From a virus: DNA of 35,832 bases. The notes beneath the pieces are model-generated. The model saw only the letters and a list, made by a program, of their open reading frames with translations, was not told the origin of the DNA and searched no databases. Of the stretch, positions 32,967 to 35,379 are shown piece after piece. The position numbers and the translations under genes were made by a program. Where the stretch lies: positions 1 to 35,832 of IMG/VR virus record IMGVR_UViG_3300020733_000038; one strand, given 5' to 3'. Position 1 is the first letter of the stretch, and every line of letters starts with the position of its first letter.

Positions 32967-33616
32967 GTTTACCGCCTCCATATTATCAAGACGAATATGT
33001 TACGATATACCATGCTAATTGTCGTGATGTAGCTCCGAATTTAGGAAAATTTGATCTTTTATTAACTGATTCACCTTACGGTATTAAAGCTGATGAGGCA
33101 GCTAGTAAGAATAAAGGAAAGTGGGGATGGAAAGATTATGGATCATCAAATTGGGATCGTGAACGTCCAACAAAAGAAGATTTTGATATTATTTTGTCTT
33201 TAGCAGATTACGCAATTATTTGGGGCGGTAATTATTTTGCAGATTTACTTCCACCAAGTATGGGATGGCTCGCTTGGGATAAAGAACAACGAAACTTTTC
33301 ATTAGCTGATTTTGAGATGGCGTGGACAAGTTTCTGGGTAGCTGCACGTTGCTTTGATTATTCGCGAGCTAAGGCGATGCAGGATGGAAAACAACATCCT
33401 ACACAAAAGCCAATTAGTTTGATGAATTTTTGCATCAATCACGCGGACGAAAGAGCTAAAACTCCAATGAATACGATTATTGATCCATTTATGGGAAGCG
33501 GAACGACTTTAAGATCTGCCAAAGATTTAGGCAGAAAAGCAGTAGGTATAGAAATTAATGAGGCTTACTGCGAAATCGCAGCAAATCGAATGGCACAGGA
33601 AGTTTTTGCATTATGA
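32963..33616 (+). CDS. DNA methyltransferase (N6-adenine/N4-cytosine type)
   Basis: A 217-residue amino-methyltransferase. Motif IV appears first as TDSPYG (Asp36-Ser-Pro-Tyr), with Ser in the second position of the usual DPPY/SPPY. The SAM-binding motif I DPFMGSGTT comes last (about 174-182), followed by GRKAVGIEI. This beta-class order and small size are usual for orphan phage enzymes. KQHPTQKP before motif I is also a family hallmark. No restriction partner is seen, so it probably protects phage DNA or regulates. Confidence 0.87.
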   Translation: MSLPPPYYQDEYVTIYHANCRDVAPNLGKFDLLLTDSPYGIKADEAASKNKGKWGWKDYGSSNWDRERPTKEDFDIILSLADYAIIWGGNYFADLLPPSMGWLAWDKEQRNFSLADFEMAWTSFWVAARCFDYSRAKAMQDGKQHPTQKPISLMNFCINHADERAKTPMNTIIDPFMGSGTTLRSAKDLGRKAVGIEINEAYCEIAANRMAQEVFAL

Positions 33617-33909
33617 AATTACTCAAAATTGAAATCATCAAAAAAATAGTTTCTGAGCATTTTGGTTATGCTTCAGAAGTCGTATTTTCAAGAGACAGAA
33701 AGTCTGGATTAGTTAAAGCACGACATTCTGCTATTTATATTACATCTGTTTTAACGTGGTACGGAAGAATGGAGATTGCTGAAGCTTATAAAATGAATGT
33801 CAGCAACATTTCATATATTTTAAGCACTGTTGAAGATTTTAAGTCTGTAGATCCACGGTTCGCTAAAGAACTCGAGGAGCTTAAACAAAAATGCGAACAA
33901 GCAATTTAA
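33613..33909 (+). CDS. DnaA domain IV-like DNA-binding protein
   Basis: A 98-residue protein that looks like a free-standing DnaA domain IV. IKKIVSEHFGYASEVVFSRDRKSGLVKARHSAIYI corresponds to the V..(Y/H)FG....(L/F).S..R...(V/I).AR..A.Y. signature. TSVLTWYGRMEIAEAYKMNVSNISYIL corresponds to the T..S..EI...F....S.V helix. It lacks an ATPase domain. It could bind the phage origin in the initiator gene at 34495 or compete with host DnaA. Overlaps the methyltransferase by ATGA. Confidence 0.68.
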   Translation: MKLLKIEIIKKIVSEHFGYASEVVFSRDRKSGLVKARHSAIYITSVLTWYGRMEIAEAYKMNVSNISYILSTVEDFKSVDPRFAKELEELKQKCEQAI

Positions 33910-33920
33910 CAAAAATACTT

Positions 33921-34283
33921 ATGTCTGATCCTAAAGAAAACATTGAAAAGCTAGTTAAAGATACACAAGAAATAATGGAAGCTGCGACTTCGCAAATCGC
34001 TAAGGTTTGCGTGATTCGTAATCGATTGCAGAAAACGCCAATCAATAAAGTACTGTCTGAAATCCTTCGTGATATACGCAACGTTAGTCGCGAAAAGACT
34101 AAGTATGTCGGCAAAACGTGGGATGAGAAGGTTGCTTTAGCTAAAAAACAACCAGGAGAACAACCAGCAGAACAACCACCAAAACAACCAGCAGATTTCA
34201 TTCGAGAAAGTCAGTTTTGCAACCAGCAGAACAACCAGCAGAACAACCAGCAAAAAAATACATTAATGGAGGTCATAAAATGA
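33921..34283 (+). CDS. Hypothetical protein with QPAE/NQQ repeat tail
   Basis: From ATG 33921 (120 residues); an in-frame start at 33891 would overlap the previous gene. The N-terminal ~75 residues are helical and charged (SDPKENIEKLVKDTQEIME, then LSEILRDIRNVSREKTK). The tail is repetitive and changes character: first KQPGEQPAEQPPKQPA, then NQQNNQQNNQQ, because the same DNA repeat is read in two frames. It overlaps the next gene by ATGA. No family recognised. Confidence 0.58.
   Translation: MSDPKENIEKLVKDTQEIMEAATSQIAKVCVIRNRLQKTPINKVLSEILRDIRNVSREKTKYVGKTWDEKVALAKKQPGEQPAEQPPKQPADFIRESQFCNQQNNQQNNQQKNTLMEVIK
34147..34253 (+). repeat. AACAACCAGCAG 12-bp repeats in two phases
   Basis: Four units (34147-34194: two exact, two variants) are followed by 26 unique bases and then about 2.7 units (34221-34253). 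The second cluster is shifted by two bases modulo three, so the first encodes QPAE and the second NNQQ in the gene frame. In the frame of the next gene the second cluster encodes QPAEQPAEQPA. Confidence 0.8.
34268..34273 (+). promoter_or_regulatory. Strong ribosome binding site GGAGGT
   Basis: GGAGGT six bases before the ATG at 34280 fixes that start. It rules out the repeat-containing upstream frame (from a TTG at 34217) as the main product. Confidence 0.75.
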
Positions 34284-34495
34284 AGGCTGACATTCCATTA
34301 TACAAAGAGGGCGAAATTGTTTACCATAAGACCGAGGACGTTCCGGGGGTCATTATTGGCTTACTTTACCAAGATGGAAACGTTAAGTATCAAGTCACTT
34401 GGCAAGGTCGAGCAACCGACATTCACTATTCAAGCGAGCTAACCAAGGAACGGCCTTATTTTATTTCACGTTCTGATGAAACGGAGGAAGTGTAA
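34280..34495 (+). CDS. Small hypothetical protein, SH3/tudor-like (71 aa)
   Basis: A beta-rich protein, MKADIPLYKEGEIVYHKTED, followed by GVIIGLLYQDGNVKYQVTWQGR and YSSELTKERPYF. The pattern F.(E/K)G..V.H......G.V.G.......YxVxW resembles small SH3/tudor-like domains found in phage early regions. Strong Shine-Dalgarno sequence GGAGGT at 34268. It overlaps the initiator gene by TAATG. Role unknown. Confidence 0.62.
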   Translation: MKADIPLYKEGEIVYHKTEDVPGVIIGLLYQDGNVKYQVTWQGRATDIHYSSELTKERPYFISRSDETEEV

Positions 34496-35379
34496 TGCGT
34501 ATCAGAACTGTAAAGCCAGAGTTTTGGGGACATCCAATTTTAGCAAAGCTAACTGATGAATCGCGTTTGCTGGCGATTGGTTTGCTTAACATTGCCGATG
34601 ACGAAGGTTATTTTTTAGCTGATCCTTTACTTATCAGATCATCAATTTGGCCATTCGACGATGATTCGACGAAGGCTCGACGATCCATCGACGATCTTTC
34701 GCGCATAGGTTATATTTTTGTTTCAAAACACGAAACTCACGGATTGATTGGTTATGTTGTAAATTTTACAAAGCATCAAAGAGTTGATCGCCCAAATGCC
34801 TCTAAATTAGCATCTTATTTTGATTCGACGAACGTTCGACGATTAATCGACGATGATTCGACGATTGATCGACGACGGATCAGGGATCAGGGAAAGGATC
34901 AGGGAAAGGAACAGGGAAAGGAACAGGTAGCAGGGAGTGCAGAGGGATGTGCGGATGTTTCCGCACCAACGTCTAATTTGAAAAAAGAGAAGATTGTTGA
35001 AACCGATGAGCAATGGCTTGAAGGCTTAAAAGCAAATCAGGCTTATCAAGGAATCAACATCGTTGCCGAATACGGCAAAATGGTTGCTTGGTGTGGCGTA
35101 AACAAGAAGCAGGCAACGAAAAGACGCTTTATCAATTGGCTCAATAGGGCTGAGAAGCCGTTTTCTTTTACTCAGGTGGGGCAAACTGCAAGCAGTCAAT
35201 ACCAACGTAGCCATAAGGTACACGAACCGGCTAATTGGCGCGAAGTCTTACGAATCAATTATCCAGACAACGTATTCTCAAACGATACAAGAGACTTTCA
35301 ATCAATGTCTGTATCTCAGCAGCAATCAATCGTTGATGCGTTTAATCGCGTACCACCAAATGAACGGAGATCTGCGTAA
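34495..35379 (+). CDS. Replication initiator/DnaD-like protein
   Basis: A 294-residue protein with the very common phage initiator N-terminus RTVKPEFWGHPILAKLTDESRLLAIGLLNIADDEGYF, a winged helix (about 1-105). A charged linker (about 108-150) includes DQGKDQGKEQGKEQ. The C-terminal part (about 165-225) contains EYGKMVAWCGVNKKQATKRRFINWLNR, a helicase-loader-like helical region. It likely binds the iterons located inside its own gene and loads the replicative helicase, comparable in layout to lambda O. ATGxGTAATG overlaps join it to both neighbours. Confidence 0.82.
   Translation: MRIRTVKPEFWGHPILAKLTDESRLLAIGLLNIADDEGYFLADPLLIRSSIWPFDDDSTKARRSIDDLSRIGYIFVSKHETHGLIGYVVNFTKHQRVDRPNASKLASYFDSTNVRRLIDDDSTIDRRRIRDQGKDQGKEQGKEQVAGSAEGCADVSAPTSNLKKEKIVETDEQWLEGLKANQAYQGINIVAEYGKMVAWCGVNKKQATKRRFINWLNRAEKPFSFTQVGQTASSQYQRSHKVHEPANWREVLRINYPDNVFSNDTRDFQSMSVSQQQSIVDAFNRVPPNERRSA
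34655..34875 (+). other. Candidate replication origin: two arrays of 11-bp TCGACGA iterons
   Basis: TCGACGA occurs at 34655, 34666, 34677 and 34688, and again at 34825, 34836, 34847, 34858 and 34869. Spacing is exactly 11 bp within both arrays, with consensus (A/T)TCGACGAT plus variable bases. Because 11 is not a multiple of three, the units fall in all three reading frames and encode changing residues, so selection acts on the DNA. Direct iterons inside an initiator gene are typical of phage origins such as lambda ori in O. Confidence 0.82.
34877..34931 (+). repeat. Purine-rich 12-bp repeats after iterons
   Basis: GGATCAGGGAAA is present twice (34884, 34896), with variants GGAACAGGGAAA (34908) and GGAACAGGTAGC (34920) and a partial copy at 34877. 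The plus strand is almost all purine here. It encodes the DQGK/EQGK linker of the initiator protein and directly follows the second iteron array. It may be part of the origin, or simply a coding repeat. Confidence 0.7.

Follow-up and report, generated by a model that had tools for sequence, protein, structure and literature searches.

The iterons of bacteriophage lambda lie in the middle of the initiator gene O, and the region that opens directly adjoins them (PMC7466680). RepA of pSK41 uses its winged-helix N domain to bind Rep boxes located centrally in rep, and this origin encodes the linker of the protein (PMC5703833). In the Vibrio satellite PLE, the DNA-binding domain of a RepA_N initiator covaries with the iterons through repeated specificity swaps (PMC8263062). 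For geminiviruses, Rep–iteron specificity is described as sequence-specific, with iterons that differ even among close relatives (PMC12548392). Here, we describe a candidate origin in the IMG/VR virus record IMGVR_UViG_3300020733_000038, positions 1 to 35,832, which was analysed at its full length of 35,832 nucleotides and is called the window below. A replication initiator gene in the window carries two arrays of the unit TCGACGA, repeated every 11 base pairs (bp), followed by a purine-rich tract. Judging from comparisons among homologs, the arrays and tract very probably form a replication origin of the iteron type within the gene, which the winged-helix domain of the initiator itself would read. 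The features concerned are as follows.

34495..35379, + strand: replication initiator gene, 294 amino acids (PHROGs 'replication initiation protein', E 2.5e-25; AlphaFold2 model)
34655..34694, + strand: array 1, four copies of TCGACGA, encoding residues 54-67 and with them most of predicted recognition helix H3
34669..34704, + strand: codons of the predicted recognition helix H3 (residues 59-70, from predicted secondary structure), overlapping array 1
34774..34794, + strand: codons of the putative specificity loop H94-Q95-R96-V97-D98-R99-P100 (from mutual information with unit class, contingency and a held-out test), outside both arrays
34825..34875, + strand: array 2, five copies of TCGACGA, encoding the start of a low-confidence linker
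34877..34929, + strand: purine-rich tract with 12-bp repeats of the GGAACAGGGAAA type at 34884-34927

Comparison with described initiators

The system works like the origins of lambda O and pSK41 RepA and is a member of neither family by the tests run. It shares with lambda O direct-repeat iterons inside the initiator gene, a putative opening region next to them, a gene for a P-type helicase loader downstream in several relatives, and the place of array 2 in the linker between the DNA-binding and C-terminal domains; lambda O has no counterpart of array 1. In lambda, 4-6 imperfect 19-bp inverted repeats form a single central cluster, accompanied by an AT-rich tract, whereas the window family has a pair of arrays with 6-7-bp units repeated at 10-11 bp, of which one lies in the coding sequence of the DNA-binding domain, and a purine tract with a guanine-plus-cytosine (GC) content of 51%. 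The lambda O family was matched neither by the window protein in Pfam nor among 55 members of the family. The likeness to pSK41 RepA consists of the winged-helix N domain, the sites inside the initiator gene and the linker encoded by array DNA. For pSK41, a second array within the coding sequence of the N domain is not described, and the RepA_N domain had no Pfam match at E up to 0.01 in the 55 members. The only Pfam domains among these members were DnaT, Phg_2220_C and DnaA_N, with DnaT or Phg_2220_C placed C-terminally in some, and no Pfam family matched the window protein.

Covariation of initiator and iterons with repeated switches is shared with PLE RepA_N; in contrast to PLE, the units here are short, phased and inside the gene, and two to three loop residues track the switches. 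Residue-to-iteron correspondences are known for geminivirus Rep, which differs as an unrelated rolling-circle HUH protein with intergenic iterons. New in this family are the second array in the coding sequence of the DNA-binding domain, the short units phased at 10-11 bp, the repeated coordinated switches and the residue rule described below.

The N domain of the window protein was matched by PHROGs 16167, 1408 and 2149 (E 2.5e-25, 1.3e-24 and 1.6e-20). AlphaFold2 modelled a confident winged-helix N domain (residues 1-97; predicted local distance difference test score >90 over residues 1-110), a low-confidence linker and a helical C part. A sequence match to a solved structure was not found for the protein. 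The top solved structures for the model in Foldseek were the initiator/Rep entries 4pt7, 5kbj and 4pql, which we take to be RepA_N proteins, at E values of only 0.02-0.05. VIA-align gave Z scores of 7.1-7.8 against initiator structures, a level common to many winged helices. The resemblance in fold to initiator structures is no more than suggestive.

Nine phased units in the initiator gene

The original prediction placed nine TCGACGA units, four and five at 11-bp steps, inside a replication initiator gene, and held that their occurrence in all three codon phases could not be explained by protein constraint. Exact copies were confirmed at 34655, 34666, 34677 and 34688 in array 1 and at 34825, 34836, 34847, 34858 and 34869 in array 2, with every step being 11 bp. 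The codon phases are 1, 0, 2, 1 through array 1 and 0, 2, 1, 0, 2 through array 2. As predicted, the last unit of array 1 is 137 bp from the first unit of array 2, and purine-rich 12-bp repeats follow the arrays. TCGWCGA occurs four times elsewhere in the window, with 11-bp phasing in none. Synonymous codons were shuffled within the gene 5,000 times, preserving the protein and its codon usage; the shuffles reached no more than 5 units and 3 phased pairs, compared to the 9 units and 7 phased pairs observed. Chance is excluded for this arrangement, and protein constraint is insufficient, as the shuffles keep the protein and lose the signal. Two relatives with a 98% identical protein have both arrays unchanged and one copy fewer of the purine repeat.

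Helical phasing across the family

Homologs were gathered in three scans (two of viral contigs and one of genomes), together with a few singly fetched loci. This gave 244 genes, reduced to 147 non-redundant genes at a cut-off of 85% of the N domain. Periodicity was scored against synonymous shuffles. The prominent lags were 11 and 22 in the window's clade (lag 11: mean z 2.35, z>2 in 65% of genes) and 10 and 20 in another clade (lag 10: mean z 2.64, z>2 in 71%). The 3' part of the homologous genes gave no signal at lags 11 and 10 (mean z 0.02 and -0.09). Identity at lag 11 was 0.55 in both arrays vs. 0.26-0.27 elsewhere in the gene. Neighbouring 7-mers of the same class were spaced by 11 bp in 171 cases and by 9, 10, 12 or 13 bp in one. 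The 6-bp unit TCGCGA is mostly spaced at 10 bp; it has 11-bp spacing in a few lineages (loci L207, L233 and L245) and 10-bp spacing in a large clade (L097-L176), and thus spacing is not set by unit length.

The comparison of iteron phasing in homologs, which had been suggested as a check, came out in favor of iterons: among the DNA periods of the homologs, that of 11 or 10 bp dominates, and it does not extend into the 3' part of the genes. Together with the covariation of the two arrays described next, this upholds the view that the arrays are phased direct repeats of one unit in the initiator gene, selected at the DNA level. As read from the homologous genes, the architecture of the family is two helically phased arrays, one in the N-domain coding sequence and one in the linker, and then a purine-rich tract.

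Both arrays switch units together

Five main unit classes were recognised, TCGwCGA, TACsGTA (with TCCGGTA), TCCwrGA, TCAsTGA and TCGCGA, most of these being short sequences that are palindromic or nearly so. The two arrays of one gene shared 9.55 7-mers vs. 3.59 between genes; the maximum in 5,000 permutations was 4.7, and synonymous shuffling gave 2.55. The two arrays belonged to the same class in 94 of the 109 genes with both assigned (permutation mean 35, maximum 51). Agreement was 47/59 with the TCGCGA/10-bp clade excluded (permutation mean 12, maximum 24). A tree built without the array-1 columns required at least 17-20 class changes. One supported clade of 13 rows that includes the window contains four unit classes, and arrays 1 and 2 agree in every row. 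In one Klebsiella pneumoniae genome, one homolog has TACsGTA units and another has TCAsTGA-type units, which shows that the unit is not dictated by the host. Acidipropionibacterium timonense has two prophage copies of the initiator (L197 and L198), in which an insert lengthens the array-1 protein region and adds extra TCAsTGA units.

The original prediction had also proposed that the arrays, about 13 helical turns apart, would let initiator complexes face the same side of the DNA. This relation was rejected because the last-to-first distance varies among homologs: many close relatives have 137-138 bp, the TCGCGA clade has 194 bp (about 18.5 helical turns of 10.5 bp each), and values elsewhere are scattered. 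Within a clade, the distance between arrays is set by the length of the protein domain.

A purine-rich tract adjoins array 2

The purine tract is the most purine-rich 54-nucleotide stretch of the window. It is also the 50-nucleotide stretch that most favors an RNA:DNA hybrid, in a scan with nearest-neighbour parameters of which only the ranking was used. In 110 of 138 homologs, the most purine-rich 30 nucleotides of the gene fall at 340-480, directly past array 2. The tract of the window encodes DQGK-like repeats, and the purine repeats of homologs are read in all three frames. Because the position is conserved and the repeats use all three frames, the tract is taken to be kept as DNA. An AT-rich unwinding element was not found directly beside the iterons, where the adjoining tract is purine-rich.

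A loop residue tracks the half-site

Outside array 1, mutual information with unit class was highest at residues 98, 99 and 96, which sit in a conserved loop after the wing, HQ-x-[VI]-[DN]-x-P. All 71 genes whose units were TCG, TCC or TCGCGA had D at residue 98; of the 27 genes with TCA or TAC units, 26 had N and one had S. In these training genes, Asp98 went with A-free half-sites and Asn98 with A-containing half-sites in 97/98. At residue 96, all 11 TACsGTA genes had V, and almost every other gene had R or K.

The rule was fixed before four new scans were made. These supplied 83 new non-redundant genes as a held-out set, 42 of them with one class in both arrays. The pre-set rule was correct in 35 of the 36 held-out genes to which it applied, and the split between an acidic residue (D or E) and Asn at residue 98 was correct in 42/42. 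Four loci (L502, L490, L543 and L563) have Glu98 instead of Asp98 and retain TCGwCGA units, as expected if the acidic side chain is what counts. Valine at residue 96, the pre-registered predictor of TAC, failed since loops with V-N-R carry TCAsTGA. Residue 99, noticed post hoc, is K (H once) for TAC vs. R for TCA with no exception in either set. The proposed code for residues 98-99 is N-K for TAC, N-R for TCA, D/E-R for TCG, and D-K for TCC, TCG or TCGCGA.

Contacts of Asn with adenine and of Asp with cytosine are familiar chemistry, and residues of the loop may touch the half-site. The loop HQ-R-V-D98-R99-P is likely to be the specificity determinant, with Asp/Glu98 corresponding to TCG/TCC and Asn98 to TCA/TAC half-sites. 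We consider it reasonably probable that residues 98 and 99, with 96, encode the half-site in a very widespread initiator family, so that the protein sequence would reveal the origin sequence, and that origin specificity can switch again and again within one gene. As part of the same proposal, much of the family would have one array written into the recognition-helix codons, so that reader and site would share some nucleotides.

Proposed origin and alternative explanations

In the proposed mechanism, the winged-helix N domain (residues 1 to about 100) would bind the 7-bp quasi-palindromic units. Initiators would align on one DNA face within each array because the 11-bp period puts neighbours about one helical turn apart. 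The bound initiators may then open the adjoining purine-rich tract, possibly assisted by an R-loop from transcription of the initiator gene; alternatively, the initiator could bind a single strand of the tract. The C-terminal part would recruit the helicase through a loader of the DnaC/P type or through DnaB, the product of a neighbouring gene in relatives. Among relatives, the gene that follows encodes DnaB helicase in 4/10 or a DnaC/IstB-like loader, and E. coli prophage relatives encode replication protein P next door; the E. coli homolog is of the type present at 108907-110456 of NZ_CP091691.1. Initiator binding, origin firing, the role of the purine tract and helicase recruitment are all inferred.

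Several observations weigh against this proposal or the residue code. The tract is 51% GC (27/53 bases G/C) vs. 43% for the window, which is atypical of an AT-rich opening element. About one-quarter of the homologs, mostly distant ones, are without a recognised unit in one or both arrays, and Pseudomonas phages JBD44 and F10 (28% identity) have no recognised arrays. Training and held-out genes are related to each other. The trees, built on only 59-71 columns, are poorly resolved, and only two independent pairs fall on strongly supported branches, too few for significance alone; parsimony counts and the held-out test were relied on in their place. Cumulative GC skew, another check suggested with the original prediction, has its maximum near the locus, at 35181, but is given little weight because the record is a fragment that ends 0.9 kb past array 2.

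Another possible, though somewhat unlikely, explanation is that the arrays are operators or control sites for autoregulation, titration or handcuffing, or that array 1 is a control site and array 2 alone the origin. In both lambda O and pSK41 rep, the sites form one central set that corresponds in position to array 2, which leaves array 1 as the extra one (PMC7466680, PMC5703833), and the purine tract adjoins array 2, not array 1. The specificity code of residue 98 is compatible with control sites as well. However, both arrays carry one unit and switch jointly, which suggests that the same protein binds both, and a site at least 160 bp inside the gene would be an odd location for a promoter operator.

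The association between residue 98 and the unit could also reflect shared ancestry, in which N-domain modules were inherited with their arrays, instead of direct contact. The weakly resolved trees and the two strongly supported pairs leave room for this explanation. On a tree built without the loop columns, however, the A-containing state changed at least 10 times and residue 98 changed with every one; on the best tree, 10/10 independent pairs agreed, with weak support for single branches. The clade of the window also has residues that match its four unit classes. We regard shared ancestry as an unlikely explanation.

It is very improbable that a host factor or another phage factor, such as DnaA, a partition protein or a methylase, reads the units instead of the initiator. 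The structural search also lists partition proteins of similar winged-helix fold (TubR and AspA), and the window phage has the following gene upstream.

33613-33909: stand-alone DnaA domain IV-like gene, without the rest of DnaA (PF08299, E 4e-8)

The gene ends 586 bp upstream of the initiator start and 746 bp upstream of array 1, and its presence about 0.6 kb upstream is as originally predicted. A role in the origin system was rejected: no DnaA box was found near the arrays, and the gene is not conserved with them, being present among the fetched loci only in near-identical relatives and in one 28% match (L541). Against such a factor also stand the two units in one Klebsiella genome and the prediction of the unit by initiator residues 96/98.

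Finally, the arrays do encode Asp/Arg/Ser-rich peptides and the tract DQGK-like repeats, but the controls refute an explanation of the units by protein repeats, by codon bias or by the 11-bp period that bacterial DNA shows in general, since the units rotate through three frames, synonymous shuffles lose the signal while keeping the protein, and no lag-11 signal occurs in the 3' part of the genes that carry the arrays.

Other features

34147-34252: C/A-rich 12-bp repeat (AACAACCAGCAG) in the gene preceding the initiator

This repeat encodes QPAEQP in one frame and, after a short insert, NQQNNQQ in another. Its copy number is higher in L001 and L002. One strain of Pseudonocardia oceani has homologs with equal match statistics on its chromosome and on plasmid pPoc2 (L212 and L213), hinting at a phage-plasmid or at plasmid use of the same initiator.

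Significance

Phages and prophages of many bacterial groups carry initiators of this family, among them those of Proteobacteria (E. coli and Klebsiella included), Actinobacteria and Verrucomicrobia. A search of the open literature found no mapped origin for it. If the proposal is true, the origins of a very large set of phages could be located by sequence alone, and two or three residues would suffice to predict origin compatibility. The family would then also offer a natural experiment on joint changes of specificity in an initiator and its sites when both share one stretch of coding DNA.
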